A stretch of 64,000 nucleotides of DNA, from assembly GCA_963971285.1 (NCBI GenBank), contig OZ020253.1:2542001-2606000 (forward strand), given 5' to 3'. A program made the translations under genes and the position numbers. The notes under the pieces are model-generated. The model ran no database searches. It worked only from the letters and a program-made list of their open reading frames with translations, and was not told the origin of the DNA. Positions 3,257 to 41,300 of this stretch are shown here, piece after piece; the first letter of the stretch is position 1; the number at the start of each line of letters is the position of its first letter. This DNA is from Astropecten irregularis (taxonomy: Eukaryota; Echinodermata; Asteroidea; Paxillosida; Astropectinidae).

Positions 3257-3540
3257 TATTATCATCCCTGGTCATTGGGCCCATTTACATTCCTGAAACA
3301 ATCTCAACTCCCTGGGGAGTATACAGCCCGCAGCTGCCTGCAAAGCGTGCAGGGCTAATCAAGCACACCAAGCCATCTCTACCCTCACAGGTACCCATTT
3401 ACACCTGGGTGAAGAGAAGCAATATGTGGCAAAGCGTCTTGCCCAAGGACGCAAGCACCACTACCCCATGGCTGGATTCGAACCCACGATCTGTAGACTG
3501 ACCACAAGATCTTGAGTACGACACGCCACTAGACAAGCGA
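3257..3540 (-). mobile_element. tRNA-derived SINE (family 4), full-length
   Basis: tRNA-like head on the minus strand at about 3470-3540 (B box gggttcgaatcc in reverse) followed by the body with ccatttacacctgggtgaag and ccctggtcattgggcccatt. Its left end directly precedes the tandem modules. Confidence 0.82.
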
Positions 3541-3784
3541 CAGACTGCAATAGCAGTGATGGGAGCAACATCACTGGAGATGAGCCCATGGCCATGGTAA
3601 TAATTTGCTCTTTGTTTGGTTTTTCGGTCTGTTAGTCAGTGGGGCTGTCCGTCTGTCTGTCGGTCGTTTATCTCTCCTTCAATTGAGGGAATCCAATCAT
3701 TTATTATGAACATGTCTTCTTCATTTCCTCTGGACTAAAAGGATTGACTGTGCACCTCGCGTACTACCAGCATCACAGATACGA

Positions 3785-3970
3785 GTCAAGCATCATCCCT
3801 GGACTACAGAGGTCAAGAGAGACATCTAGGAGGGTCTACAGAGGTTCTTGCAGTTGAGGAAACTTCCCAGCAAACATAACATCGAGGGCAGCTTGTTCAG
3901 TGGCACTGCAGACCCGAACGTGAAGGAACATCAAGGACTTTTGTCGAAATTCCCTGACGCTCTACTGTAG
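3785..3970 (+). pseudogene. Block C relic, module 1
   Basis: Reads VKHHPWTTEVKRDI, then TAG, then LQRFLQLRKLPSKHNI. A one-base insertion follows, then in the shifted frame CSVALQTRT, TGA, RNIKDFCRNSLTLYC. It carries the shared TAG, the +1 insertion and the TGA also seen in modules 2-4. Confidence 0.66.
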
Positions 3971-4013
3971 GTAAGCCAAAACACTAGATATCTTACTTTA
4001 AAAAAAGTATACT

Positions 4014-4850
4014 TTGACGGCAGTGACGTCAGCAACAGCAGAGACAGCAGAGACAGCAGAGACAGCAGCGAGAGCAGAGACAGCAGAGACGGCAGAGACG
4101 GCAGAGATGACAAAGACGGCAGTGACGGCAGAGACGGCAGAGACAGCAGCGACAGCAGAGATAGCAGAGATGGCAGAAACAGCAGCAGTAGCAGAAACAG
4201 CAGAGACGGCAGCGACAGCAGAGACAGCAGCAACAGCAGAGATGGCAGAGACAGCAGAGACAGCAGAGACAGCAGAGACAGCAGAGACGGCAGAGATGAC
4301 AAAGACGGCAGCGACGGCAGAGACAGCAGAGACGGCAGCGACAGCAGAGACGGCAGCGATGGCAGAGACGGCAGAGACGGCAGCGACAGCAGAGACGGCA
4401 GCGACGGCAGAGACGGCAGCGACAGCAGAGACGGCAGCGACGGCAGAGACGGCAGCGACGGCAGAGACAGCAGAGACAGCAGAGACAGCAGAGACGGCAG
4501 AGACGGCAGCGACAGCAGAGACGGCAGCGACGGCAGAGACAGCAGAGACGGCAGCGACAGCAGAGACGGCAGAGACGGCAGCGACGGCAGAGACGGCAGA
4601 GACGGCAGAGACAGCAGAGACAGCAGAGACGGCAGAGACGGCAGAGACAGCAGAGACGGCAGAGACGGCAGAGACAGCAGAGACAGCAGAGACGGCAGAG
4701 ACAGCAGAGACAGCAGAGACGGCAGAGACAGCAGCAACAGCAGAGACGGCAGAGACGGCAGATACGGCAGAGACGGCAGAGACGGCAGAGACGGCAGAGA
4801 CGGCAGAGACGGCAGAGACGGCAGAGACGGCAGAGACGGCAGAGACAGCA
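4014..4850 (+). repeat. 9-bp minisatellite block, module 2
   Basis: Tandem (acggcagag / acagcagag)n with scattered variants such as gatgacaaagac and agcagcagtagc. No unit phase produces a stop codon, so all six frames are open: TAE, RQR or GRD on plus and LPS, SAV or LCR on minus. Confidence 0.95.
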
Positions 4851-5079
4851 GTGATGGGAGCAACATCACTGCAGATGAACCCATGGCCATGGTAATAATT
4901 TGCTCTTTGTTTGGTTTTTCGGTCTGTTAGTCAGTGGGGCTGTCCGTCTGTCTGTCGGTCGTTTATCTCTCCTTCAATTGAGGGAATCCAATCATTTATT
5001 ATGAACATGTCTTCTTCATTTCCTCTGGACTAAAAGGATTGACTGTGCACCTCGCGTACTACCAGCATCACAGATACGA

Positions 5080-5265
5080 GTCAAGCATCATCCCTGGACT
5101 ACAGAGGTCAAGAGAGACATCTAGGAGGGTCTACAGAGGTTCTTGCAGTTGAGGAAACTTCCCAGCAAACATAACATCGAGGGCAGCTTGTTCAGTGGCA
5201 CTGCAGACCCGAACGTGAAGGAACATCAAGGACTTTTGTCGAAATTCCCTGACGCTCTACTGTAG
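5080..5265 (+). pseudogene. Block C relic, module 2
   Basis: Same sequence and same three lesions (TAG, +1 G, ACG TGA) as the relic at 3785-3970. Confidence 0.66.
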
Positions 5266-5308
5266 GTAAGCCAAAACACTAGATATCTTACTTTAAAAAA
5301 AGTATACT

Positions 5309-6118
5309 TTGACGGCAGTGACGTCAGCAACAGCAGAGACAGCAGAGACAGCAGAGACAGCAGCGACAGCAGAGACAGCAGAGACGGCAGAGACGGCAGA
5401 GATGACAAAGACGGCAGTGACGGCAGAGACGGCAGAGACAGCAGCGACAGCGGAGATAGCAGAGATGGCAGAAACAGCAGCAGTAGCAGAAACAGCAGAG
5501 ACGGCAGCGACAGCAGAGACAGCAGAGACAGCAGAGACAGCAGAGACAGCAGAGACAGCAGAGACGGCAGAGATGACAAAGACGGCAGCGACGGCAGAGA
5601 CAGCAGAGACGGCAGCGACAGCAGAGACGGCAGCGATGGCAGAGACGGCAGAGACGGCAGCGACAGCAGAGACGGCAGCGACGGCAGAGACGGCAGCGAC
5701 AGCAGAGACGGCAGCGACGGCAGAGACGGCAGCGACGGCAGAGACAGCAGAGACAGCAGAGACAGCAGAGACGGCAGAGACGGCAGCGACAGCAGAGACG
5801 GCAGCGACGGCAGAGACAGCAGAGACGGCAGCGACAGCAGAGACGGCAGAGACGGCAGCGACGGCAGAGACGGCAGAGACGGCAGAGACAGCAGAGACAG
5901 CAGAGACGGCAGAGACGGCAGAGACAGCAGAGACGGCAGAGACGGCAGAGACAGCAGAGACAGCAGAGACGGCAGAGACAGCAGAGACAGCAGAGACGGC
6001 AGAGACAGCAGCAACAGCAGAGACGGCAGAGACGGCAGATACGGCAGAGACGGCAGAGACGGCAGAGACGGCAGAGACGGCAGAGACGGCAGAGACGGCA
6101 GAGACGGCAGAGACAGCA
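5309..6118 (+). repeat. 9-bp minisatellite block, module 3
   Basis: Same variant order as the block at 4014-4850 with small in-frame indels, showing it is a recent copy of the whole module rather than independent growth. Confidence 0.95.
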
Positions 6119-6347
6119 GTGATGGGAGCAACATCACTGCAGATGAACCCATGGCCATGGTAATAATTTGCTCTTTGTTTGGTTTTTCGGTCTGTTAGTC
6201 AGTGGGGCTGTCCGTCTGTCTGTCGGTCGTTTATCTCTCCTTCAATTGAGGGAATCCAATCATTTATTATGAACATGTCTTCTTCATTTCCTCTGGACTA
6301 AAAGGATTGATTGTGCACCTCGCGTACTACCAGCATCACAGATACGA

Positions 6348-6533
6348 GTCAAGCATCATCCCTGGACTACAGAGGTCAAGAGAGACATCTAGGAGGGTCT
6401 ACAGAGGTTCTTGCAGTTGAGGAAACTTCCCAGCAAACATAACATCGAGGGCAGCTTGTTCAGTGGCACTGCAGACCCGAACGTGAAGGAACATCAAGGA
6501 CTTTTGTCGAAATTCCCTGACGCTCTACTGTAG
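6348..6533 (+). pseudogene. Block C relic, module 3
   Basis: Same three lesions as modules 1 and 2. The flanking piece differs by single bases (for example gattgattgtgcacc at 6305). Confidence 0.66.
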
Positions 6534-6576
6534 GTAAGCCAAAACACTAGATATCTTACTTTAAAAAAAGTATACT

Positions 6577-7404
6577 TTGACGGCAGTGACGTCAGCAACA
6601 GCAGAGACAGCAGAGACAGCAGAGACAGCAGCGAGAGCAGAGACAGCAGAGACGGCAGAGACGGCAGAGATGACAAAGACGGCAGTGACGGCAGAGACGG
6701 CAGAGACAGCAGCGACAGCAGAGATAGCAGAGATGGCAGAAACAGCAGCAGTAGCAGAAACAGCAGAGACGGCAGCGACAGCAGAGACAGCAGCAACAGC
6801 AGAGATGGCAGAGACAGCAGAGACAGCAGAGACAGCAGAGACAGCAGAGACGGCAGAGATGACAAAGACGGCAGCGACGGCAGAGACAGCAGAGACGGCA
6901 GCGACAGCAGAGACGGCAGCGATGGCAGAGACGGCAGAGACGGCAGCGACAGCAGAGACGGCAGCGACGGCAGAGACGGCAGCGACAGCAGAGACGGCAG
7001 CGACGGCAGAGACGGCAGCGACGGCAGAGACAGCAGAGACAGCAGAGACAGCAGAGACGGCAGAGACGGCAGCGACAGCAGAGACGGCAGCGACGGCAGA
7101 GACAGCAGAGACGGCAGCGACAGCAGAGACGGCAGAGACGGCAGCGACGGCAGAGACGGCAGAGACGGCAGAGACAGCAGAGACAGCAGAGACGGCAGAG
7201 ACGGCAGAGACAGCAGAGACGGCAGAGACGGCAGAGACAGCAGAGACAGCAGAGACGGCAGAGACAGCAGAGACAGCAGAGACGGCAGAGACAGCAGCAA
7301 CAGCAGAGACGGCAGAGACGGCAGATACGGCAGAGACGGCAGAGACGGCAGAGACGGCAGAGACGGCAGAGACGGCAGAGACGGCAGAGACGGCAGAGAC
7401 AGCA
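6577..7404 (+). repeat. 9-bp minisatellite block, module 4
   Basis: Almost the same series of variants as the two blocks before it, including the gatgacaaagac interruptions at matching places. Confidence 0.95.
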
Positions 7405-7633
7405 GTGATGGGAGCAACATCACTGCAGATGAACCCATGGCCATGGTAATAATTTGCTCTTTGTTTGGTTTTTCGGTCTGTTAGTCAGTGGGGCTGTCCG
7501 TCTGTCTGTCGGTCGTTTATCTCTCCTTCAATTGAGGGAATCCAATCATTTATTATGAACATGTCTTCTTCATTTCCTCTGGACTAAAAGGATTGACTGT
7601 GCACCTCGCGTACTACCAGCATCACAGATACGA

Positions 7634-7819
7634 GTCAAGCATCATCCCTGGACTACAGAGGTCAAGAGAGACATCTAGGAGGGTCTACAGAGGTTCTTGC
7701 AGTTGAGGAAACTTCCCAGCAAACATAACATCGAGGGCAGCTTGTTCAGTGGCACTGCAGACCCGAACGTGAAGGAACATCAAGGACTTTTGTCGAAATT
7801 CCCTGACGCTCTACTGTAG
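7634..7819 (+). pseudogene. Block C relic, module 4
   Basis: Same three lesions as modules 1-3. Confidence 0.66.
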
Positions 7820-9505
<1,686 letters not shown>

Positions 9506-9692
9506 TAATAATTTGCTCTTTGTTTGGTTTTTCGGTCTGTTAGTCGGTGTAGCTGTCCGTTTGTCTGTCAGTCGTTTATCTCTCCTTCAACTGAGGGAAT
9601 CAAATCATTTATTATGAACATGTCTTCTTCGTTTCCTCTGGGCTAACAGGAGTGACTGTGCACCTCACGTACTACCAGCATCGCAGACACGA

Positions 9693-9877
9693 GTCAAGCA
9701 TCATCCCTGGACTACAGAGGAGAAGAGAGACATCTAGGAGGGCCAGCAGAGATTCTTCCAGTTGAGGAAACTTCCCAGCAAACATAAAAACAAGGCAGCT
9801 TGTTCAGTGGCACCGCAGACCCGAACGTGAAGGAACATCAAGGACTTTTGTAAAAATTCGTTGACGCTCTACTGTAG
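9693..9877 (+). pseudogene. Block C relic, module 5 (intermediate)
   Basis: Reads VKHHPWTTEEKRDI, TAG, then QQRFFQLRKLPSKHKNKAAC, SVAPQTRT, TGA, RNIKDFCKNSLTL. It has the TAG and TGA but lacks the one-base insertion of modules 1-4, so it is intermediate between them and the copy at 14308. Confidence 0.68.
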
Positions 9878-9900
9878 GTAAGCCAAAACACTAGATATCT

Positions 9901-10264
9901 TTAAAAAGTAGTATCATACTTTGGTAAGAAACCAAATCAGAAATGTTCACAGATTTACGTATAACTTACAGGGTGTGAAGATGGTGGTGGTAGAAACATA
10001 CCGTTAACATTTGAGTGCCTGAAATGGTGTATTTTTCCAGAAATTAGTAAAACAATGACCGAAAATCTGTTTAATCTTTTAAAAGATCAAAAATAAAAGA
10101 GAAAAGACTTAAGAAATACAGTGGCTGTTTTTCACTGTTTTCTCAAAAAGCGGGCACCGTATGGGACTGAAATTTTCACAGATGACTGTTACTGTATCTG
10201 TCTTTATATTTTTGCCCATGAATCTGTATTTCTTTGATGAAAAACAAAGTATGATACTACCTTT
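9901..10264 (+). mobile_element. MITE-A copy with inverted ends
   Basis: Begins agtagtatcatactttggt and ends with the inverse ccaaagtatgatactacctt. About 360 bases, no coding capacity. It is inserted in the 3' flank of module 5, right after the conserved cactagatatc. Confidence 0.85.
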
Positions 10265-10420
10265 AAGAAATACGGTGGCAGTTTTTCAGTTTTCTCAAAA
10301 AGTGGGCAACGTATGGGACTGAAATGTTCACAGATGACTGTTACTGTATATTCCTTGATATGTTTGCCCATGAATCTGCATTTCTTTGATGAAAACCAAA
10401 GTTTGATATTACCTTTAATA
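10265..10420 (+). mobile_element. Second right half of MITE-A
   Basis: Repeats the right half of the preceding element (aaatacggtggcagttttt to gatattaccttta), so it is a partial tandem copy. Confidence 0.8.
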
Positions 10421-10690
10421 GTTGAACAATGATAGAATGTTCCAACAGTCCAGTCTTGAGAAGCCAGTGTGTCATAAAGCACAATGAATAAGACCCAATA
10501 ATTGAGATAGTACAAAGATGTACTGTAATTGCTTCTGTGCACTGTCACATGCTGTAACTGTCCTCTATTGCATAGACTGCCAAGTATGTCCTGAATGTAC
10601 AGTGTCTGCACATATGTGGTCTGCAGTCTATGTGGTTGGTTGCAGCAATATGTATGAAGCTTGTGTGGCTGATAAAAATGATAACTGGGT
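10421..10690 (+). other. 3' flank paralog carrying a single satellite-like unit
   Basis: The stretch 10547-10670 aligns with 14517-14630, the left edge of the 35-bp satellite (shared: gccaagtatgtcct, aatgtacagtgtctgca, atatgtatgaagcttgt). Here there is only one tatgaagcttgtgtggctgat, so this looks like the unexpanded form of the locus. Confidence 0.7.
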
Positions 10691-10734
10691 TTATAGAGCG
10701 CCAAATTGCCAAAGGATACATGGCACTGAATTTA

Positions 10735-10980
10735 ATATTATCCCTGGTCATCTGGCCATAATTCCTAAAACCATCTCAACTCCCTAAGGAGTATATAGCC
10801 TCGTGCTACCATAGGGCACACAGAGGCTATAATCAAACCACAAAGCCATGTCTACCCTCACAGGTATCCATTTACACCTGGGTGAAGAGGAGCAATACGT
10901 GACAAAGTGTCTTGCTTAAGGATGCAAGCACTTCTAGCCCATGGATGGATTCGAACCCACAATCTGCCTGCAGCATCCGT
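10735..10980 (-). mobile_element. tRNA-derived SINE (family 4)
   Basis: Contains the conserved body (attatccctggtcat, accatctcaactcccta, acacctgggtgaagag) and a tRNA-like B box on the minus strand (gattcgaaccc near 10950). It abuts the recombinase-like block A. Confidence 0.8.
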
Positions 10981-10985
10981 TCAAT

Positions 10986-11027
10986 GAAACTCATGTAGCC
11001 ACTGCAGCTCAAATTCTTGCATTAAAG
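10986..11027 (+). pseudogene. Block A left half: ETHVATAAQILALK
   Basis: Fourteen codons preserved between an upstream SINE (ending about 10980) and a MITE that begins within the last codons. In the family this reads R/K-H-I/V-A-T-x-x-Q-x-L-x-L, carrying the box II Arg region of the recombinase. Here the preceding Lys/Arg is replaced by Glu-Thr. Confidence 0.62.
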
Positions 11028-11535
11028 GTAGTATCATACTTTGGTGTTTGTCAAAGAAATGCAGATTCATGTGTAAAAATATCAAAGTAGACACAATAAC
11101 AATAATCTGTGAAATTCCAGTCCCATACGGTGCCCACTTTTTGAAAAAACAGTGAAAAACAGCCACAGTATTTCTTAAGCCTTTTCTTTTTTATTTTTGA
11201 TCTTTAAAAGATAAAAAATAATTTTGGTCACTGCTTATTCTTGAAAGATAGTATCATACTTTGGTAAGATAACGAAACAGAAATGTACACAGATTTACCT
11301 ATAACTTACAGGATATAAAGATAGTGATGTTAGAAACATACCGTTAAAATCTTTCTGCCTGAAATGCTGTATTTATTCAGGGTTTGACTCTTTTCTGAAG
11401 AAATACACCATTCCAGGCAGAAAGATTCTTGATAACGGTATGTTTCTACCACCACTATCTTTATACCCTGTAAGTTATATGTAAATCTGTGATGATTTCT
11501 GTTTTGTTATCTGATTAAAGTATGATACTATGTTG
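11024..11535 (+). mobile_element. Two MITE-A elements nested in block A
   Basis: 11024-11245 is the left part of a MITE-A (taaaggtagtatcatactttgg). 11246-11534 is a nearly perfect palindrome of MITE-A halves (gatagtatcatactttggt to aaagtatgatactat). Together they separate ALK from NNQLELL of one coding segment. Confidence 0.8.
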
Positions 11536-11536
11536 A

Positions 11537-11727
11537 AAGAATAACCAGCTGGAACTCTTGCAGACTTCATGGGCCATAATTTGAGGCTACATCACAAGTA
11601 CTACTAGTTGCCAGATATGCTATTCAGCGGGGCGTACACCAAACTGCCCAGATTATTCCTGAGTTTGGAGAGGGGCTACTTCCTTTCCCAGCTGGGCAGA
11701 TCTTTAGAGGACGTGCATAAACAGGAG
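11537..11727 (+). pseudogene. Block A right half: recombinase-like box with MGH...H..YY
   Basis: After the MITE the frame resumes with KNNQLELL. A one-base loss shifts to LADFMGHNLRLHHKYY, an in-frame TAG follows, then LPDMLFSGAYTKLPRLFLSL and ERG. The segment ends GRSLEDVHKQE at a good donor (gtaagg, 11728). The Gly-His plus downstream His and Tyr resemble boxes near the active-site Tyr of tyrosine recombinases (inference). Confidence 0.7.
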
Positions 11728-12041
11728 GTAAGGGCACCCCCAATTTAAACCCCATTTAGCAGATTCTGACTCGGTGGAAGGGAAAAACCAAATTCGGGTA
11801 TTTTTTTGAAGCCGCACCCCCCCCCCCCCCCTTAAAAAAAAAAGAGGAAAGGCTGACCAAGCCAGGACCAAAGTGAAGGCAAGAAAACTTCCCCCAACCA
11901 AATTGGACTTGACTTGATCATATAACTCTGATGATATCCTTCCTTCCGCCCTCCACCAAAACCAGCCCTGCAGAGAGTGTCCAATACAAATGTTGTGAAC
12001 TGATTTTAATATGCAATTTAGTGCACTGTGTTTACTTTCAG
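11728..12041 (+). other. Intron-like gap between blocks A and B
   Basis: It begins gtaagg and ends tttactttcag, a good acceptor. It contains a C-run followed by an A-run around 11815-11843. No coding similarity seen. Confidence 0.5.
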
Positions 12042-14120
12042 AAGACTTCAGTAGTCAACAGCAGTGACAGTAGCGACAGCAGCGACAGCAGTGACAGCGG
12101 AGACGGCAGAAACAGCAGCAGTGACAGCAGCAGTAGCAGAAACAGCACAGACATCAGCGACAGCAGAGACAGCAGCGACAGCAGAGACGGCAGAGATGAC
12201 AGAGACGGCAGCGACAGCGGAGATGACAAAGACGGCAGTGACGTCAGCAACAGCAGAGACAGCAGAGACAGCAGAGAAAGCAGAGACGGCAGAAACAGCA
12301 GCAGTAGCAGAAACAGCAGAGACTGCAGCGACAGCAGAGACAGCAGCAACAGCAGAGATAGAGACAGCAGAGACAGCAGAGACGGCAGAGATGACAGATG
12401 GCAGTGACAGCGGAGACAGCAGCAACAGCAGAGATGGCAGAGACGGCAGTGACAGCAGAGACAGCAGAGACGGCAGAGATGACAAAGATGGCAGCGACGT
12501 CAGCGACAGCAGAGACAGCAGAGATGGCAGAGACGGCAGCGACAGCAGAGACAGCAGCAACAGCAGAGATGGCAGCGACAGCAAAGACGGCAGAGATGGC
12601 AGAGACGGCAGCGACAGCAGAGACAGCAGCAACAGCAGAGATAGAGACAGCAGAGACAGCAGAGACGGCAGAGATGACAGATGGCAGTGACAGCGGAGAC
12701 AGCAGCAACAGCAAAGATGGCAGAGATGGCAGAGACGGCAGCGACAGCAGAGACAGCAGAGATGGCAGAGACGGCAGCGACAGCAGAGACAGCAGCAACA
12801 GCAGAGATGGCAGCGACAGCAAAGACGGCAGAGATGGCATTGACGGCAGAGACGGCAGCGACAGCAGAGACAGAAGAGACAGCAGAGACAGCAGAGACAG
12901 CAGAAACAGCTGAGACAGCTGAGACAGCAGAGACAGCAGAGACAGCAGAGACGGCAGAGATGACAAAGACGGCAGCGACGTCAGCGACGGCAGAGACGGC
13001 AGTGACACCAGTGACAGCAGAGACTGCAGAGACAGCAGAGACGGCAAAGACGGCAGAGACGGCAGAGACAGCAGAGACAGCAGTGACAGCAGAGATAGCA
13101 GAGACAGCAGAGACGGCAGAGACGGCAGCGACAGCAGAGACGGCAGAGACGGCAGAGACGGCAGAGACGGCAAAGACGGCAGAGACGGCAGAGACAGCAG
13201 AGACAGCAGTGACAGCAGAGATAGCAGAGACTGCAGAGACAGCAGAGACAGCAGAGACGGCAGTGACACCAGTGACAGCAGAGACTGCAGAGACAGCAGA
13301 GACGGCAAAGACGGCAGAGACGGCAGAGACAGCAGAGACAGCAGTGACAGCAGAGATAGCAGAGACAGCAGAGACGGCAGAGACGGCAGCGACAGCAGTG
13401 ACAGCAGTGACAGCAGAGACAGCAGAGACGGCAGAGACGGCAGAGACGGCAGAGACGGCAGAGACGGCAGAGGCGGCAGAGATGGCAGAGATGGCAGCGA
13501 CAGCAGTGACAGCAGTGACAGCAGAGACAGCAGAGACGGCAGAGATGGCAGAGGCGGCAGAGACGGCAGAGACAGCAGAGACAGCAGAGACAGCAGAGAC
13601 AGCAGAGACGGCAGCGACAGCAGAGACAGCAGAGACGGCAGAGACGGCAGAGACGGCAGAGATGGCAGAGATGGCAGAGAAGGCAGAGACGACAGAGACG
13701 ACAGAGACGGCAGAGACAACAGAGACGGCAGAGACAGCAGAGACGGCAGAGATGGCAGAGATGGCAGAGAAGGCAGAGGCGGCAGAGACAGCAGCGACGG
13801 CAGAGACAGCAGAGACGGCAGAGACGGCAGAGACGGCAGAGACGGCAGAGACGGCAGAGACGGCAGAGACGGCAGAGATGGTAGAGACGGCAGCGACAGC
13901 AGAGACGGCAGAGACAGCAGAGACGGCAGAGACGGCAGAGACAGCAGAGACGGCAGAGATGGTAGAGACGGCAGAGATGGCAGAGACGGCAGAGACGGCA
14001 GAGACAGCAGAGACGGCAGAAACAGCAGAGACAGCAGCAACAGCAGAGACAGCAGCGACATCAGAGACAGCGACAGCAGTGATGGGAGCAACATCACTGC
14101 AGATGAACCCATGGCCATGG
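12042..14120 (+). pseudogene. Block B: Ser/Asp-rich exon expanded into a 9-bp minisatellite
   Basis: After the acceptor the frame reads KTSVVNSSDSSDSSDSSD and continues as SRD, GRD and SDS triplets to a stop at 12405-12407; frame slips then alternate the reading. The right end reads [15 protein letters not shown] and meets a donor-like gtaata at 14121. The 9-bp unit (roughly agcagagac / ggcagagac) encodes S/G-R-D in this frame. The left end is less regular (true SSD codons); homogeneity rises to the right. I read it as an original low-complexity coding exon that grew into a satellite. Confidence 0.62.
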
Positions 14121-14307
14121 TAATAATTTGCTCTTTGTTTGGTTTTTCGGTCTGTTAGTCGGTTTGGCTGTCCGTCTGTCTGTCGGTCGTTTATCTCTCC
14201 TTCAACTGAGGGAATCCAATCATTTATTATGAACATGTCTTCTTCATTTCCTCTGGTCTAACAGGAGTGACTATGCACCTCACGTACTACCAGCATCGCA
14301 GACATGA

Positions 14308-14490
14308 GTCAAGCATCTTCCCTGGACTACAGAGGACAAGCGAAACGTCCAGGAGTGCCTACAGAGGTTCTTGCTGTTGAGGAAAGTTCCGGGCAATCGT
14401 GACATCAAGGCAGCTTGTTCGGTGGCACTGCAGACCCGGTATTGGAGGAACATCAAGGACTTTTGACGAAATTCGCTGACACTCTACCCT
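14308..14490 (+). pseudogene. Block C: C-terminal Trp/Lys-rich domain, best-preserved copy
   Basis: Reads VKHLPWTTEDKRNVQECLQR, then FLLLRKVPGNRDIKAACSVA, then LQTRYWRNIKDF followed by TGA and RNSLTLY. The pattern P-W-T-x-E-x-K, F-x-x-x-x-K-V-P-G, C, R-x-W-x-x-I-K-x-F is a domain I recognise at the end of tyrosine-recombinase-like proteins of invertebrates and fish. A frame break lies just upstream of VKH (TGA at 14305-14307). This copy lacks the stop and frameshift found in the other five. Confidence 0.7.
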
Positions 14491-14600
14491 AGAGAAGCGA
14501 AAACACTAGATATCCTACTGTCTCATGTACATGCTGCAACTATCCTCTTTTGGATAGATACTGCCAAGTATGTCCTCAATGTACAGTGTCTGCATGTATG
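14491..14600 (+). other. 3' flank of the decayed gene, left edge of the 35-bp array
   Basis: Contains cactagatatcctactgtc and the segment paralogous to 10547-10670. Degenerate satellite units begin about 14600. Confidence 0.7.
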
Positions 14601-14835
14601 GATGATAGCTATATGTATGAAGCTTGTATGTGATTGATGATCCGTATGAAGCTTGTGTGTGATTGATGGTAGATATACGTATGAAGCTTGCCTGTGATTG
14701 ATGATAGATAGACGTATGAAGCTTGCCTGTGATTGATGATAGATATACGTATGAAGCTTGCCTGTGATTGATGATAGATATACGTATGAAGCTTGCCTGT
14801 GATTGATGATAGATATACGTATGAAGCTTGCCTGT

Positions 14836-17365
14836 GATTGATGATAGATATACCTATGAAGCTTGTATGCGATTGATGATAGATATACGTATGAAGCTTG
14901 TGTGTGATTGATGGTAGATATACGTATGAAGCTTGCCTGTGATTGATGATAGATATACGTATGAAGCTTGCCTGTGATTGATGATAGATATAAGTATGAA
15001 GCTTGTATGTGATTGATGATAGATATACGTACGAAGCTTGCCTGTGATTGATGATAGATATACCTATGAAGCTTGTATGCGATTGATGATAGATATACGT
15101 ATGAAGCTTGTGTGTGATTGATAGTAGATATACCTATGAAGCTTGTATGCGATTGATGATAGATATACGTACGAAGCTTGCCTGTGATTGATGATAGATA
15201 TACGTATGAAGCTTGTATGTGATTGATGATAGATATACGTATGAAGCTTGCCTGTGATTGATGACAGATATACGTATGAAGCTTGCCTGTGATTGATGAT
15301 AGATATACCTATGAAGCTTGTATGCGATTGATGATAGATATACGTATGAAGATTGCCTGTGATTGATGATAGATAGACGTATGAAGCTTGCCTGTGATTG
15401 ATGATAGATATACCTATGAAGCTTGTATGCGATTGATGATAGATATACGTATGAAGCTTGCCTGTGATTGATGATAGATATACCTATGAAGCTTGCCTGT
15501 GATTGATGATAGATATACGTATGAAGCTTGCCTGTGATTGATGACAGATATACGTATGAAGCTTGCCTGTGATTGATGATAGATATACCTATGAAGCTTG
15601 TATGCGATTGATGATAGATATACGTATGAAGCTTGCCTGTGATTGATGATAGATATACGTATGAAGCTTGCCTGTGATTGATGATAGATATACGTATGAA
15701 GCTTGCCTGTGATTGATGACAGATATACGTATGAAGCTTGCCTGTGATTGATGATAGATATACCTATGAAGCTTGTATGCGATTGATGATAGATATACGT
15801 ATGAAGCTTGCCTGTGATTGATGACAGATATACGTATGAAGCTTGCCTGTGATTGATGATAGATATACCTATGAAGCTTGTATGCGATTGATGATAGATA
15901 TACGTATGAAGCTTGCCTGTGATTGATGATAGATATACGTATGAAGCTTGCCTGTGATTGATGATAGATATACGTATGAAGCTTGCCTGTGATTGATGAT
16001 AGATATACGTATGAAGCTTGCCTGTGATTGATGATAGATATACGTATGAAGCTTGCCTGTGATTGATGATAGATATACCTATGAAGCTTGTATGCGATTG
16101 ATGATAGATATACGTATGAAGCTTGTGTGTGATTGATGGTAGATATACGTATGAAGCTTGCCTGTGATTGATGATAGATATACGTATGAAGCTTGCCTGT
16201 GATTGATGATAGATATAAGTATGAAGCTTGTATGTGATTGATGATAGATATACGTACGAAGCTTGCCTGTGATTGATGATAGATATACCTATGAAGCTTG
16301 TATGCGATTGATGATAGATATACGTATGAAGCTTGTGTGTGATTGATAGTAGATATACCTATGAAGCTTGTATGCGATTGATGATAGATATACGTACGAA
16401 GCTTGCCTGTGATTGATGATAGATATACGTATGAAGCTTGTATGTGATTGAAGATAGATATACGTATGAAGCTTGCCTGTGATTGATGACAGATATACGT
16501 ATGAAGCTTGCCTGTGATTGATGATAGATATACCTATGAAGCTTGTATGCGATTGATGATAGATATACGTATGAAGATTGCCTGTGATTGATGATAGATA
16601 GATGTATGAAGCTTGCCTGTGATTGATGATAGATATACCTATGAAGCTTGTATGCGATTGATGATAGATATACGTATGAAGCTTGCCTGTGATTGATGAT
16701 AGATATACCTATGAAGCTTGCCTGTGATTGATGATAGATATACGTATGAAGCTTGCCTGTGATTGATGACAGATATACGTATGAAGCTTGCCTGTGATTG
16801 ATGATAGATATACCTATGAAGCTTGTATGCGATTGATGATAGATATACGTATGAAGCTTGCCTGTGATTGATGATAGATATACGTATGAAGCTTGCCTGT
16901 GATTGATGATAGATATACGTATGAAGCTTGCCTGTGATTGATGACAGATATACGTATGAAGCTTGCCTGTGATTGATGATAGATATACCTATGAAGCTTG
17001 TATGCGATTGATGATAGATATACGTATGAAGCTTGCCTGTGATTGATGACAGATATACGTATGAAGCTTGCCTGTGATTGATGATAGATATACCTATGAA
17101 GCTTGTATGCGATTGATGATAGATATACGTATGAAGCTTGCCTGTGATTGATGATAGATATACGTATGAAGCTTGCCTGTGATTGATGATAGATATACGT
17201 ATGAAGCTTGCCTGTGATTGATGATAGATATACGTATGAAGCTTGCCTGTGATTGATGATAGATGTACGTATGAAGCTTGCCTGTGATTGATGATAGATA
17301 TACCTATGAAGCTTGTATGCGATTGATGATAGATATACGTATGAAGCTTGTGTGTGATTGATGGT
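14836..17365 (+). repeat. 1225-bp higher-order repeat (35 units), two copies
   Basis: Rare variants recur exactly 1225 bases apart: taagtatgaag at 14991 and 16216, gaagattg at 15348 and 16573, with the order of variants conserved up to about 16140/17365. Confidence 0.88.
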
Positions 17366-20300
17366 AGATATACGTATGAAGCTTGTATGCGATTGATGAT
17401 AGATATACGTATGAAGCTTGCCTGTGATTGATGATAGATATACATATGAAGCTTGTATGTGATTGATGATAGATATACGTATGAAGCTTGCCTGTGATTG
17501 ATGATAGATATACGTATGAAGCTTGCCTGTGATTGATGATAGATATACGTATGAAGCTTGCCTGTGATTGATGATAGATATACGTATGAAGCTTGCCTGT
17601 GATTGATGATAGATATACGTATGAAGCTTGCCTGTGATTGATGATAGATGTACGTATGAAGCTTGCCTGTGATTGATGATAGATATACCTATGAAGCTTG
17701 TATGCGATTGATGATAGATATACGTATGAAGCTTGTGTGTGATTGATGGTAGATATACGTATGAAGCTTGTATGCGATTGATGATAGATATACGTATGAA
17801 GCTTGCCTGTGATTGATGATAGATATACATATGAAGCTTGTATGTGATTGATGATAGATATACGTATGAAGCTTGCCTGTGATTGATGATAGATATACCT
17901 ATGAAGCTTGCCTGTGATTGATGATAGATATACGTATGAAGCTTGCCTGTGATTGATGATAGATATACCTATGAAGCTTGTGTGTGATTGATAGTAGATA
18001 TACGTATGAAGCTTGCCTGTGATTGATGATAGATATACCTATGAAGCTTGTATGCGATTGATGATAGATATACGTACGGAGCTTGTGTGTGATTGATGGT
18101 AGATATACGTATGAAGCTTGCCTGTGATTGATGATAGATATACGTATGAAGCTTGTGTGTGATTGATGGTAGATATACCTATGAAGCTTGCCTGTGATTG
18201 ATGATAGATATACGTATGAAGCTTGTTTGTGATTGATGATAGATATACGTAAGAAGCTTGCCTGTGATTGATGATAGATATACCTATGAAGCTTGTTTGT
18301 GATTGATGATAGATATACGTATGAAGCTTGTTTGTGATTGATGATAGATATACGTAAGAAGCTTGCCTGTGATTGAAGATAGATATACGTGTGAAGCTTG
18401 CCTGTGATTGATGATAGATATGTATGAAGCTTGCCTGTGATTGATGATAGATATGTATGAAGCTTGCCTGTGATTGATGATAGATATACCTATGAAGCTT
18501 GTATGCGATTGATGATAGATATACGTATGAAGCTTGTGTGTGATTGATGGTAGATATACGTATGAAGCTTGCCTGTGATTGATGATAGATATACGTATGT
18601 AGCTTGTGTGTGATTGATGGTAGATATACCTATGAAGCTTGCCTGTGATTGATGATAGATATACGTAAGAAGCTTGTTTGTGATTGATGACAGATATACG
18701 TATGAAGCTTGTGTGTGATTGATGATAGATATACCTATGAAGCTTGTTTGTGATTGATGATAGATATACGTATGAAGCTTGTTTGTGATTGATGATAGAT
18801 ATACGTAAGAAGCTTGCCTGTGATTGATGATAGATATACCTATGAAGCTTGTATATGCGATTGATGATAGATATACGTATGAAGCTTGTGTGTGATTGAT
18901 GGTAGATATACCTATGAAGCTTGCCTGTGATTGATGATAGATATACATATGTAGCTTGTATGTGATTGATGATAGATATACGTATGAAGCTTGTTTGTGA
19001 TTGATGATAGATATACCTATGAAGCTTGCCTGCGATTGATGATAGATATACCTATGAAGCTTGCCTGTGATTGATGATAGATATACCTATGAAGCTTGTT
19101 TGTGATTGATGATAGATATACCTATGAAGCTTGTTTGTGATTGATGATAGATATACCTATGAAGCTTGTTTGTGATTGATGATAGATATACCTATGAAGC
19201 TTGCCTGTGATTGATGATAGATATACCTATGAAGCTTGCCTGTGATTGATGATAGATATACCTATGAAGCTTGTTTGTGATTGATGATAGATATACCTAT
19301 GAAGCTTGCCTGCGATTGATGATAGATATACCTATGAAGCTTGCCTGTGATTGATGATAGATATACCTATGAAGCTTGTTTGTGATTGATGATAGATATA
19401 CCTATGAAGCTTGTTTGTGATTGATGATAGATATACCTATGAAGCTTGTATGCGATTGATGATAGATATACGTATGAAGCTTGCCTGTGATTGATGACAG
19501 ATATACGTATGAAGCTTGCCTGTGATTGATGATAGATATACCTATGAAGCTTGTATGCGATTGATGATAGATATACGTATGAAGCTTGCCTGTGATTGAT
19601 GATAGATATACGTATGAAGCTTGCCTGTGATTGATGATAGATATACGTATGAAGCTTGCCTGTGATTGATGATAGATATACGTATGAAGCTTGCCTGTGA
19701 TTGATGATAGATATACGTATGAAGCTTGCCTGTGATTGATGATAGATATACCTATGAAGCTTGTATGCGATTGATGATAGATATACGTATGAAGCTTGTG
19801 TGTGATTGATGGTAGATATACGTATGAAGCTTGCCTGTGATTGATGATAGATATACGTATGAAGCTTGCCTGTGATTGATGATAGATATAAGTATGAAGC
19901 TTGTATGTGATTGATGATAGATATACGTACGAAGCTTGCCTGTGATTGATGATAGATATACCTATGAAGCTTGTATGCGATTGATGATAGATATACGTAT
20001 GAAGCTTGTGTGTGATTGATAGTAGATATACCTATGAAGCTTGTATGCGATTGATGATAGATATACGTACGAAGCTTGCCTGTGATTGATGATAGATATA
20101 CGTATGAAGCTTGTATGTGATTGAAGATAGATATACGTATGAAGCTTGCCTGTGATTGATGACAGATATACGTATGAAGCTTGCCTGTGATTGATGATAG
20201 ATATACCTATGAAGCTTGTATGCGATTGATGATAGATATACGTATGAAGATTGCCTGTGATTGATGATAGATAGATGTATGAAGCTTGCCTGTGATTGAT

Positions 20301-23113
20301 GATAGATATACCTATGAAGCTTGTATGCGATTGATGATAGATATACGTATGAAGCTTGCCTGTGATTGATGATAGATATACCTATGAAGCTTGCCTGTGA
20401 TTGATGATAGATATACGTATGAAGCTTGCCTGTGATTGATGACAGATATACGTATGAAGCTTGCCTGTGATTGATGATAGATATACCTATGAAGCTTGTA
20501 TGCGATTGATGATAGATATACGTATGAAGCTTGCCTGTGATTGATGATAGATATACGTATGAAGCTTGCCTGTGATTGATGATAGATATACGTATGAAGC
20601 TTGCCTGTGATTGATGACAGATATACGTATGAAGCTTGCCTGTGATTGATGATAGATATACCTATGAAGCTTGTATGCGATTGATGATAGATATACGTAT
20701 GAAGCTTGCCTGTGATTGATGACAGATATACGTATGAAGCTTGCCTGTGATTGATGATAGATATACCTATGAAGCTTGTATGCGATTGATGATAGATATA
20801 CGTATGAAGCTTGCCTGTGATTGATGATAGATATACGTATGAAGCTTGCCTGTGATTGATGATAGATATACGTATGAAGCTTGCCTGTGATTGATGATAG
20901 ATATACGTATGAAGCTTGCCTGTGATTGATGATAGATGTACGTATGAAGCTTGCCTGTGATTGATGATAGATATACCTATGAAGCTTGTATGCGATTGAT
21001 GATAGATATACGTATGAAGCTTGTGTGTGATTGATGGTAGATATACGTATGAAGCTTGTATGCGATTGATGATAGATATACGTATGAAGCTTGCCTGTGA
21101 TTGATGATAGATATACATATGAAGCTTGTATGTGATTGATGATAGATATACGTATGAAGCTTGCCTGTGATTGATGATAGATATACGTATGAAGCTTGCC
21201 TGTGATTGATGATAGATATACGTATGAAGCTTGCCTGTGATTGATGATAGATATACGTATGAAGCTTGCCTGTGATTGATGATAGATATACGTATGAAGC
21301 TTGCCTGTGATTGATGATAGATGTACGTATGAAGCTTGCCTGTGATTGATGATAGATATACCTATGAAGCTTGTATGCGATTGATGATAGATATACGTAT
21401 GAAGCTTGTGTGTGATTGATGGTAGATATACGTATGAAGCTTGTATGCGATTGATGATAGATATACGTATGAAGCTTGCCTGTGATTGATGATAGATATA
21501 CATATGAAGCTTGTATGTGATTGATGATAGATATACGTATGAAGCTTGCCTGTGATTGATGATAGATATACCTATGAAGCTTGCCTGTGATTGATGATAG
21601 ATATACGTATGAAGCTTGCCTGTGATTGATGATAGATATACCTATGAAGCTTGTGTGTGATTGATAGTAGATATACGTATGAAGCTTGCCTGTGATTGAT
21701 GATAGATATACCTATGAAGCTTGTATGCGATTGATGATAGATATACGTACGGAGCTTGTGTGTGATTGATGGTAGATATACGTATGAAGCTTGCCTGTGA
21801 TTGATGATAGATATACGTATGAAGCTTGTGTGTGATTGATGGTAGATATACCTATGAAGCTTGCCTGTGATTGATGATAGATATACGTATGAAGCTTGTT
21901 TGTGATTGATGATAGATATACGTAAGAAGCTTGCCTGTGATTGATGATAGATATACCTATGAAGCTTGTTTGTGATTGATGATAGATATACGTATGAAGC
22001 TTGTTTGTGATTGATGATAGATATACGTAAGAAGCTTGCCTGTGATTGAAGATAGATATACGTGTGAAGCTTGCCTGTGATTGATGATAGATATGTATGA
22101 AGCTTGCCTGTGATTGATGATAGATATGTATGAAGCTTGCCTGTGATTGATGATAGATATACCTATGAAGCTTGTATGCGATTGATGATAGATATACGTA
22201 TGAAGCTTGTGTGTGATTGATGGTAGATATACGTATGAAGCTTGCCTGTGATTGATGATAGATATACGTATGTAGCTTGTGTGTGATTGATGGTAGATAT
22301 ACCTATGAAGCTTGCCTGTGATTGATGATAGATATACGTAAGAAGCTTGTTTGTGATTGATGACAGATATACGTATGAAGCTTGTGTGTGATTGATGATA
22401 GATATACCTATGAAGCTTGTTTGTGATTGATGATAGATATACGTATGAAGCTTGTTTGTGATTGATGATAGATATACGTAAGAAGCTTGCCTGTGATTGA
22501 TGATAGATATACCTATGAAGCTTGTATATGCGATTGATGATAGATATACGTATGAAGCTTGTGTGTGATTGATGGTAGATATACCTATGAAGCTTGCCTG
22601 TGATTGATGATAGATATACATATGTAGCTTGTATGTGATTGATGATAGATATACGTATGAAGCTTGTTTGTGATTGATGATAGATATACCTATGAAGCTT
22701 GCCTGCGATTGATGATAGATATACCTATGAAGCTTGCCTGTGATTGATGATAGATATACCTATGAAGCTTGTTTGTGATTGATGATAGATATACCTATGA
22801 AGCTTGTTTGTGATTGATGATAGATATACCTATGAAGCTTGTTTGTGATTGATGATAGATATACCTATGAAGCTTGCCTGTGATTGATGATAGATATACC
22901 TATGAAGCTTGCCTGTGATTGATGATAGATATACCTATGAAGCTTGTTTGTGATTGATGATAGATATACCTATGAAGCTTGCCTGCGATTGATGATAGAT
23001 ATACCTATGAAGCTTGCCTGTGATTGATGATAGATATACCTATGAAGCTTGTTTGTGATTGATGATAGATATACCTATGAAGCTTGTTTGTGATTGATGA
23101 TAGATATACCTAT
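15768..23113 (+). repeat. 3673-bp higher-order repeat (105 units), two tandem copies
   Basis: Copy 1 is about 15768-19440 and copy 2 about 19441-23113. Rare variants taagtatg (16216/19889), gaagattg (16573/20246) and the indel units recur 3673 bases apart. Long open frames at 16639, 16814 and 18490 recur at 20312, 20487 and 22163 with identical translations. 105 x 35 = 3675, less 4 plus 2 from indels, gives 3673. Confidence 0.93.
16814..17830 (+). repeat. 385-bp (11-unit) sub-repeat
   Basis: The series ending in tacatatgaagcttgtatgtg at about 17436 recurs at about 17821, 385 bases later, with gatagatgtacg at 17262 and 17647. The same happens in the second 3673-bp copy. Confidence 0.8.
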
Positions 23114-24430
23114 GAAGCTTGTTTGTGATTGATGATAGATATACCTATGAAGCTTGCCTGTGATTGATGATAGATATACCTATGAAGCTTGCCTGTGATT
23201 GATGATAGATATACCTATGAAGCTTGTTTGTGATTGATGATAGATATACCTATGAAGCTTGCCTGCGATTGATGATAGATATACCTATGAAGCTTGTCTG
23301 TGATTGATGATAGATATACGTATGAAGCTTGTCTGTGATTGATGGTAGATATACGTATGAAACTTGTCTGTGATTGATGATAGATAAACGCATGAAGCTT
23401 GTCTGTGATTGATGATAGATATACCTATGAAGCTTGCCTGTGATTGATGATAGATATACGTATGAAGCTTGCCTGTGATTGATGATAGATATACGTATGA
23501 AGCTTGTCTGTGATTGATGATAGATATACGTATGAAGCTTGTCTGTGATTGATGGTAGATATACCTATGAAGCTTGCCTGTGATTGATGATAGATATACC
23601 TATGAAGCTTGTATGCGATTGATGATAGATATACTTATGAAGCTTGCCTGTGATTGATGATAGATATACCTATGAAGCTTGTTTGTGATTGATGATAGAT
23701 ATACGTATGAAGCTTGCCTGTGATTGATGATAGATAAACCTATGAAGCTTGTTTGTGATTGATGATAGATATACGTATGAAGCTTGCCTGTGATTGATGA
23801 TAGATATACCTATGAAGCTTGTTTGTGATTGATGATAGATATACGTATGAAGCTTGCCTGTGATTGATGATAGATATACGTATGAAGCTTGCCTGTGATT
23901 GATGATAGATATACCTATGAAGCTTGTTTGTGATTGATGATAGATATACGTATGAAGCTTGCCTGTGATTGATGATAGATAAACCTATGAAGCTTGTTTG
24001 TGATTGATGATAGATATACGTAAGAAGCTTGCCTGTGATTGATGATAGATATACCTGTGAAGCTTGTATGCGATTGATGATAGATATACGTATGAAGCTT
24101 GTGTGTGATTGATGGTAGATATACGTATGAAGCTTGCCTGTGATTGATGATAGATATACGTGTGAAGCTTGTATGCGATTGATGATAGATATACGTGTGA
24201 AGCTTGTATGCGATTGATGATAGATATACGTATGAAGCTTGTTTGTGATTGATGATAGATATACGTATGAAGCTTGTTTGTGATTGATGATAGATATACG
24301 TAAGAAGCGTGTATGTGATTGATGATAGATATACGTATGAAGCTTGTATGTGATTGATGGTAGATATACGTATGAAGCTTGTATGTGATTGATGATAGAT
24401 ATACCTATGAAGCCTGTGTGTGATTGATGG

Positions 24431-38300: not shown

Positions 38301-41300
38301 CGCATATTCGGCACTTGTCCTCCTTCATATCGGAACCCAGGATCTTATCGCATCCAACATGCTGTGGGAGGAAAGATAGGAGAGTGAAATAATCGGCCCT
38401 TTAGAAAGAACTCAACTCACTTTATAAGACATGGACTTTGACTGGGGGCCTGGGGATACGACTCAATGTCTTTGGTACTGGGTCTCTGAGGAGGATCCTT
38501 GGGTACAGCTGGTCGGATCATGTGTCTAACGAGAGGTTACACAGGGAGAGTCAGATGAGACCTATTACCTGCATGATAAGTGAGCGTCAGATGCGATTGT
38601 ATACGGTCATGTGGCTAGATTCCATGTGAGTGATCCTGCCAGGCGGATTCTTTCTCTGTGAGAACCTACTGGTAGGACTCGCCCAGTAGGGCATCCGCAT
38701 GACACGTGGTTGCATTAGGTAGATCGTTAATTTGCTGAGATGGGGATGGGTCGCGTGGCTGCTTTGGGAATGGCCATCAGAAGACCAAAAGGGTACTGCT
38801 CGAAGGTAGATACAGCAACGCGCTGCCGCGGTTCATGCTCCCACTGATTGATTGATTGAACTCACTTAAGTCTCGATTTTGGACATGTGCCTATTTGCTG
38901 TTTTCAAGGTATAAGCTCAAAAAATGGACAAACAGTCTTGAGACTTACGTGGCACTTCTTGTTGATGCAGATGTCTAGGACCTCGGGCCGGATCTTCTCT
39001 GGATAGCACCGGGTCCCGTCCACGATCTTGTTGACCTTGCGGAAGTGCTCGCCGCCGGACGTGATGCAGGTCAGCTCGCAAGGGCCCATGTCCTGGCTGA
39101 TGTAAGGCTCCCAGAAGTAGTAGCGACCGCCATACGGCTCGTTGTTGAAGTTGGAGCACTGGACGGAGCGAAAGTCTCGCGAGTTGGTGGGACAGTCCTG
39201 CCAGAGATCAAGAAGAAAATACTGAATTTGAAAACCTTGGAGAATTCTTCAAGACAACTGTCTTACATTTTGATCTTTGTAATCCGAGCCTGTTGCCCTA
39301 AACCACTACTGCTACTATGTTGGGAAGACATTGGGCATGATTTAGCCAATGTCTGCTCGGTCACCATGAACATATCCCCTCCAGGCCACTCTATCCAACA
39401 TGACAGTCCTTAGCTCCTCGATATTGTCTATACCAGTGTCCCTCTTCAGCATGCTGTCGTTTGTTTGCTTTCTACCATGTTTTCTTGTTCCGTGATGTGG
39501 TTCCCAAAGGATTGTTTTACTTGCTAGCAGTTATAATAATTTGGGAGGCTAATCATCCTTACTCGAAGCTGGGATGCTATATTGTGAAGGATGCGACTTC
39601 AACGTGATCGAGTAGCAGGCTTTCATGGGCGCCCTTGGCTGCCAGCCACGTTAACTCATATATGATCACGGAGTACAGCCTGAGATAGAAAGTGTTTGAT
39701 TTTTGTGGAGGGAGGAAAACCGGATCACCTGGAGAAAAACCCTTGTAGCATAGGAGAGAACCAACGCACAACTCTACTCACATATGACTCAGGCCGGATT
39801 CGAACCCGGGCCACATTGGTGAGAGGCGAGTGCCTAACGCACTTGCCACCTATGCCCCCAGTTATGGGATGGATTCCACAAAGCCCTACGATTGATAGTA
39901 ACTCGAGTTACAAAGGATAACCCATCACATCCTAGGTAGGGCTGCAATGTATCACAAGTCCTACGATTGATAGTGAGTTACGATAAGTTTGGTGAAATCG
40001 ACCCTTAGATGACAAATGCTGAGTCCTGCTATGTTAACCTTCTGGTACGTAGTTTATCTGACAGTTTGGGTAATCCTGCTTTAAGATCAATGTTTTTGAC
40101 ATGATCCTTACATGAAACGTCTATGAAGCCAAGTGTACAATCCATCCAAGGCCTTTTCTTGTTGTACTGTCAGTGTCCATGCCTCTGCACCATACAAGAG
40201 CACTGACTCAACAGTTGCCACAAATAATCTCTAATAATCTGCCCTAAACAACCTCATCACTGACTCTGAAGTCCTCCTGTTAATGTTTTGATATGAAACA
40301 GAAACAATAATAATAATCATTCTGAATTAATTCTGCGCACACATCTGTCCAAAGGCACTAGTGCCGCACATATTATTATCCCTGGTCATTGGGCCATAAT
40401 GTACATTCCTGAAACCATCTCAACTCCCTAGGGAGTATACAGCCCTGGCCACCGTATAATTCAGTGCACAGAGGCTAATCAAACCACAAAGCCATCTCTA
40501 CCCTCACAGGTACCCATTTACACCTGGGTGAAGAGGAGCAAAATGTGATAAAGCGTCTTGCCCAAGGACGCAAGCACCAATAACCCATGGCTGGATTCGA
40601 ACCCACTATCAGTAGATTGATCCATGCCAGACCACTAGGCCACAGCACTCCAACAAACAAAGCACAACTTACGTCGATATTGCAGGATTTGTACAGACTT
40701 CTTTCTCCAGTGCAGAACAGTCCTCTATGAGATGGCCTAGTCAATGAAAAAGAAGTAAAAATCTAAATTAGTACAGATTTTGGATTTTATACTCAAGATC
40801 GGATCTTGTTTTGTCAGCTGGAATTTAAATCATGCAGATTCAGAATCTTACAGATTCTGCCGGGCAGGTTCTCTCTCTCTTTGAGAGAACCTGCTGGTAG
40901 GATTCGCCCGGTGGGGCATACGTATCACACATGGTTGCGTCAGGTAGATCATTATTTTGCTGAGATGGGGATGGGTCGTGTGGCTGCCTGGGGGATAGCT
41001 ATCAGGAGACCAAAGGAGTAACGCTCGAAGGTAGATGCGGCAACGTGCTGCCGCAGCGCATGCTCCCACTGATTGATTGATTGATTGATCTTACATCCGG
41101 TGCGACAAATCGCAGTTTCGTTGACGGATTTACAAATTCGTTGTTGCATTCAGAGATATTCGTGGTCAGGTTAAAAAGGCAGTATTTTCCGCGTATTGAT
41201 TTATGTGATTATTGTTTGTAGATTTTGGCAAAAACAACTTAGACTTAATAATCACTGAAGGTGGACAGCGAGGCTAGGAACACGTCACCTGCGCTCACGT

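Follow-up and report, generated by a model that had tools for sequence, protein, structure and literature searches.

The locus at positions 10,986 to 14,490 of the window, by which we mean the whole 64,000-nucleotide stretch of Astropecten irregularis DNA analysed here, raises the question of what kind of gene left its broken pieces there and whether that gene gave rise to the surrounding repeats. The earlier note read the pieces as the relic of a tyrosine-recombinase-like gene, split by MITEs and lying at the root of the whole repeat complex. Tyrosine recombinases (YRs) are more familiar as enzymes of bacterial viruses. As a whole, the stretch is very probably best explained as holding, in tandem, two dead and 5′-truncated copies of a YR-mobilised DNA transposon of animals. 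Intact relatives in the same genome are ~4.4 kb long and carry one gene, whose product has a YR domain, then a Ser/Asp linker and, at the C-terminus, a W-T-x-E domain; these copies have common ends and mostly different flanks.

The two relics and their lesions

The features of the window are as follows.

3536..9899 (+): upstream relic copy with five C-terminal exons, at ~3536-3996, 4821-5291, 6089-6559, 7375-7845 and 9434-9899 (alignment)
9906..10418 (+): MITE-A copy in the upstream relic's 3′ flank, partially duplicated over 152 bp (repeat comparison)
10545..10616 (+): 3′ end of the element, upstream copy (84.7% to L060 8966-9037)
10965..11024 (+): 5′ remnant of the recombinase exon, reading HVATAAQILAL (84.5% to L060 4491-4561)
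11025..11536 (unstranded): MITE-A insertion (ends compared with other MITE-A copies and the L060 site)
11537..11727 (+): 3′ remnant of the recombinase exon with His-III (GHN) and the catalytic Tyr (HHKYY), then LPD..SLERG.., with a frame change and a TAG inside (reading and alignment)
11728..12041 (+): intron 1 (gtaagg...tttcag), with 3′-end conservation in L060 and L012 (alignment)
12042..14119 (+): Ser/Asp exon, expanded to ~2 kb of 9/18-bp units, with frame shifts and stops (alignment)
14120..14264 (+): putative intron 2 (gtaata...aacag) (alignment)
14265..14466 (+): C-terminal exon, with the W-T-x-E / V-P-G / R-x-W-x-x-I-K block at 14314-14463 (reading and alignment)
14529..14604 (+): 3′ end of the element, downstream copy (85.5% to L060 8968-9041)

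Direct reading of the window gives the left half of the split segment as THVATAAQILALK, with HVATAAQILALK at 10992-11027. In the right half, ADFMGH begins at 11560 in another frame than NNQLELL, and a TAG directly follows YY. Peptides and splice signals lie within 1-2 bases of where they had been placed: gtaagg at 11728, tttcag ending at 12041 and gtaata at 14120 (14121 in the earlier note). Homology to the intact relative L060 (C8) begins at 10965, not at 10986. At the DNA level, relic 10965-11028 aligns with L060 4491-4561 (84.5%), 11536-11711 with 4557-4727 (78.5%), 12017-12114 with 5018-5112 (78.8%) and 14048-14518 with 5064-5568 (73.6%). These matches place the left and right halves next to each other in the intact L060. 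In tblastn, residues 552-609 of an intact relative match 11533-11712 with an E value of 6.6e-13, and residues 542-553 match 10992-11027 with 12 of 12 residues identical; the latter match has an E value of only 0.45 taken alone, and the left half reaches 1.5e-16 at the DNA level. With the halves adjacent in L060 and the segment unbroken in all 29 relatives that were read, the proposal that the two peptides are one segment with MITE-A between them holds.

The 512-bp MITE-A (11025-11536) is inserted between two codons, TTA and AAG, which are contiguous in L060 (GCATTA/AAGGACCACCAG, the slash marking the site). It is a composite with an internal inverted duplication and the terminal inverted repeat AAGGTAGTATCATACTTTG; its TA target was assigned by eye, its ends agree with other MITE-A copies, and the right TA target copy has apparently decayed to GA. 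MITE-A landed between these two codons of the YR exon. Among the further lesions of the downstream relic are a small deletion over Arg-II, a frame change and a stop codon. When the sequences are laid side by side, a 7-bp gap relative to L060 in the left half removes the region of the catalytic Arg-II codon, and the Ser/Asp exon contains frame changes and stops. A search of both strands of the window with L060 1264-5700 (E<=1e-3) matched the named parts and the Ser/Asp arrays, and no part 5′ of box II was found. The stretch that matches putative intron 2 is an open frame in the intact relatives and may therefore be coding there. The 3′ ends of both relics match a second, short copy on L060 at 8966-9041; this copy, at L060 8074-9041, is deletion-derived. 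The relic is a dead, broken copy of a transposon that has intact relatives in its own genome.

In the upstream relic, successive C-terminal exons are separated by the expanded Ser/Asp array, and three of the five exons are 99.8-100% identical. The element's Ser/Asp run matches many places in the 9-bp arrays at 4-9.5 kb and 12-14 kb, and the corresponding exon has ~20 codons in intact copies. Most likely, as judged from sequence comparison, the 9-bp arrays and the tandem units derive from the Ser/Asp run of the recombinase gene; the run would have grown into minisatellite arrays, with tandem duplication afterwards. To this extent the relic can be called the root of the repeat complex. That role does not extend to MITE-A, which is dispersed, or to a 35-bp satellite found on at least 10 contigs. 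The satellite occupies window 14601-24429 with ~281 copies. Its origin at the relic locus was rejected: query 14480-14900 gave 341 matches, and those listed, which lie on ten contigs, do not include the window's own array and are therefore incomplete. Among the matches listed, satellite similarity starts at window 14586-14602, about where the element ends. A monomer-like stretch, recognised by eye, also follows the 3′ end of the upstream relic (10646-10670), so the relics adjoin satellite DNA.

Three side observations concern other repeats and frames of the window. Satellite translations recur at an offset of 3673 bases, for example at 16289 and 19962, which suggests a higher-order duplication of the satellite. 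A dispersed repeat lies at 10733-10967, 3257-3493 and 40371-40610, with copies 80-83% alike, and stands just before both relic copies; it contains GGATTCGAACC, which we take to be tRNA B-box-like. On the minus strand, an open frame at 38904-39248 has a cysteine-rich segment that presumably resembles those of the ADAMTS/papilin type.

Relatives in the genome and the recombinase assignment

The genome searched is the window's own 475.7 Mb assembly, in which the window lies on C17. The right half, with its stop read as X, matched 72 places (E<=10); 31 of these, the relic among them, fall below 1e-3. The P-W-T-x-E block matched 50 places, of which 24 fall below 1e-3 and 6 of these 24 lie in the window. 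Match numbers of this size for both blocks are far more than chance would give. The best 30 of the 72 right-half loci, read in frame, are the relic and 29 relatives, many of them near-identical. The split segment (H-[VI]-A-T ... M-G-H) is unbroken in 28 of the 29 by pattern test, and by eye in L023, the remaining one, which has different residues in front. At 14 of the 31 stronger places, with the relic extra, the C-terminal block follows on the same strand 0.4-0.83 kb downstream. At six, only a weak C-terminal match (E 0.0018 to 5.7) lies 1.4-2.1 kb downstream, and near ten the P-W-T-x-E query gave no match. Five further weak block pairs, 1.6-5 kb apart, show the same order. The earlier note would have been contradicted by blocks found in this order in no homolog, or by pieces from unrelated proteins; the genome relatives show neither. 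The succession of a Ser/Asp exon and then the W-x-x-E / V-P-G / R-x-W block recurs in them, and together with the L060 alignment they show that the exon layout is common to a family, as had been proposed.

At E<=0.001, a 350-residue YR query found 118 matches across the genome. Large open frames occur in many copies, the largest having 1629 residues. The 780-residue frame of L060 contains, in order, FNRRRQGEV, EIVGKRGRTVPV, TKLRKHVAT, GHD and REYY, and its N-terminus carries C-x-x-C ... H, a possible zinc-finger-like motif that had no Pfam match. The recombinase gene would be spliced, with a zinc finger at the N-terminus of its product.

Pfam Phage_integrase matches 8 of 15 aligned members (best E 1.2e-5) and 5 of 17 members in a wider set; wherever a score was given, it lies under the curated gathering cut-off of Pfam. 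It also matches the L060 780-residue frame (E 1.4e-4), and the 675-residue frame of L062 matched no Pfam family. DUF6273 matched two of the 17 members (best E 0.0037) and is taken as chance. When the 17 members were compared with six known YRs by hhalign, an E value of 6.4e-6 and a score of 49.4 were obtained, with 31% identity over 101 aligned columns. This score lies above all 400 shuffles (maximum 22.7 in 200 column shuffles and 37.9 in 200 shuffles of 25-column blocks), and the reversed alignment scored 12.7. These profile results and the Phage_integrase matches give sequence support to what had been marked as inference, the assignment to recombinases.

The alignment pairs K206, T278-K-L-R281, G306-H307 and Y316 (numbering of L022:601-1650) with the K, H-V-L-R, G-H and Y of XerD, which we take to be its catalytic Lys, HVLR and GH residues and catalytic Tyr. 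The catalytic order R-I, K, R-II, H/W-III, Y is present in the 17-row alignment, with R159 and K206 invariant and R281, H307 and Y316 conserved to at least 90%. The assignment of R159 as R-I is our own, and the hhalign alignment starts after it. Residue 278, facing the XerD His, is Thr in all 17 members, and the His of the HxxR box is therefore not present; to our knowledge, not all members of the superfamily have this His. Mean pLDDT is 72.5 for one AlphaFold model and 85.3 for a second, in which a pair of strands lies around K206. The intact protein would cut and rejoin DNA through Tyr-316.

Other searches gave no recombinase. Among PDB sequences, an intact-relative query returned two weak unrelated matches (E 1.4) and a family-profile query returned none. 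One relic piece matched nothing in PDB, and the other had two weak unrelated matches (E 0.32 and 0.47). Relic pieces matched nothing in Pfam or PHROGs, and the viral contigs searched yielded no match. In prokaryote genomes, the pattern F-[MLI]-G-H-[DN]..R..H..[YF]Y found one unrelated bacterial protein, presumably sortase-like.

Two further loci were noted. G000:C3:34039-149134 contains 24 recombinase matches with 34-39% identity on one strand, many at a spacing of 3.55 kb; each place has at least one in-frame TGA, and two adjacent units show 100% identity across 1452 compared bp. It is a tandem array of a YR element. L086:720-5606 is a relative with a 1629-residue frame, whose N-terminal half is an in-frame repeat of the S-A-Q-S-G-D type, and is a second case of repeat growth inside recombinase-family genes.

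Element ends and mobility

Ends were compared in copies chosen for long pairwise matches, and close relatives that stop earlier, of which there are several in pairwise comparison, were left out. Seven copies with six distinct flanks have the 5′ start GGACTTGTCAATGG in common, the C11 copy and one C1 copy having ~0.9 kb of upstream flank in common. Eight copies with seven distinct flanks have a common 3′ end, two C25 copies having the same downstream flank. Since these two pairs have a common flank, some copies have spread by larger duplications. The element spans 4365-4472 bp in five copies (~4.4 kb), and the C11 and C17 copies are 99.85% alike over 2.7 kb. In 14 of the 34 rows that a 311-base 5′-end query gave, a 26-bp palindrome matches itself on the opposite strand; of the 20 remaining rows, 18 begin at query base 1-5, a figure that counts copies and is no proof of an end, the query itself beginning at the end.

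Within 20 bases outside the ends, TG/GT/CA/AC steps average 0.61 in six 5′ flanks and 0.56 in seven 3′ flanks, against a background of 0.27. None of 20,000 resamples was as high, with one shared flank dropped per side, and the fixed-distance 3′ edge may include element bases. Because the junctions lie in TG-rich DNA, the exact junction base and any short direct end repeats are ambiguous. In the C16 copy, comparison of 520 bases of the 5′ end with 510 bases of the 3′ end gave no terminal inverted repeat longer than 9 bp. The perfect 26-bp palindrome GCAAATCGAGGACGTCCTCGATTTGC (L060:8142-8167, bases 69-94 of the 5′-end query) is identical in 14 places and could be a recombinase site. Outside the YR gene's own exons, L060 1264-5700, examined as one copy, has no frame above 131 residues. 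Among young copies of the closest group, dN/dS is 0.29-1.09 in 15 pairs. Another pair, L026 and L027, has 1.89, and synonymous changes account for all of the few differences among L031-L033 and between L034 and L035. Neither an excision nor an empty site was observed among the copies. By analogy with what has been proposed for Cryptons, the element would probably move by way of a circular intermediate, which would recombine with a short target rich in TG.

Alternatives and comparison with known systems

Taken by itself, the motif lacks specificity: the pattern above matched a bacterial protein. The view that the peptides are nothing but chance translations in repeat-rich DNA is nevertheless refuted by the tblastn E value of 6.6e-13, by the adjacent residues on both sides of the MITE and by the 74-85% DNA identity across the exons, the intron end and the 3′ end; we reject it as having practically no probability. 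If MITE-A instead served as a spliceable intron, the gene would be unbroken: with GT from the MITE end (AAG/GTAGTA) and AG from the target AAAG, removal of 11028-11539 gives L-K-N-N-Q in frame. The frame works out exactly, since MITE-A sits between the codons TTA and AAG. However, another AG occurs 19 nt upstream, it is this AG that the T-rich tract precedes, and the copy is dead through its other lesions, so such splicing seems very improbable.

The large open frames seen in many copies, the longest of 1629 residues, would also be expected if the relic were a dead member of a domesticated YR family, a host gene with no transposon involved, and Kojima & Jurka 2011 (PMC3212892) describe animal genes with Crypton-derived domains. 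Near-identical copies with common ends and mostly different flanks on different contigs are difficult to reconcile with a host gene, and DUF3504 is absent among the Pfam families matched by the 17 members at E<=1. Moreover, the Tyr, both Arg, Lys and His-III are kept here, whereas DUF3504 genes, according to the same paper (PMC3212892), have lost the Tyr and the second Arg. We hold domestication to be a highly unlikely account and retain the transposon reading.

The relic itself is ordinary, and the element family mildly interesting. As a fossil it is clear, leading from a coding run to minisatellite arrays and duplication, with a MITE in a coding exon. A set of almost intact and almost identical YR transposons, whose ends are mapped within a single animal genome, makes the little-studied movement of animal Crypton-like elements testable. 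The proposed Crypton-type assignment stands in that the YR gene is the only sizeable gene and neither reverse transcriptase nor inverted repeats were found (one copy each). It does not stand in the catalytic tetrad, which is R-H-R-Y in Cryptons (Kojima & Jurka 2011, PMC3212892) and R-T-R-Y plus His-III in this element. The element is a Crypton-like YR transposon rather than a proven Crypton. Full-text literature contained no description of the family that we could find, a weak negative with most subscription journals and Repbase outside its scope. The intact relatives may represent a lineage of animal YR DNA transposons that has so far gone undescribed, has moved recently and is separate from CryptonA; its marks would be the ~4.4 kb length, the possible zinc finger, the W-T-x-E domain, Thr in place of His, TG-rich insertion and a possible palindromic binding site; we put this forward tentatively, with doubt slightly outweighing belief.

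DIRS and Ngaro elements also use a YR, but L060 1264-5700, one copy, has no reverse-transcriptase-sized frame, and a retrotransposon of this kind was rejected. The likeness to CryptonA of animals lies in the YR gene as the only sizeable gene, in the lack of detectable inverted repeats and in a short deletion-derived copy. According to Kojima & Jurka (PMC3212892), animal Cryptons are without a C-terminal domain and no terminal repeats were found in them, short direct end repeats of 4-6 bp being given for fungal and stramenopile groups; the elements here differ from animal Cryptons in the conserved C-terminal W-T-x-E domain and in the Thr for the His of HxxR. The catalytic boxes, the hairpin Lys, GH and Tyr among them, align with those of XerC, XerD, lambda Int, HP1 Int, P2 Int and Cre, and to this bacterial and phage enzyme plan the elements add a Ser/Asp linker, a C-terminal domain, a possible zinc finger and putative introns.
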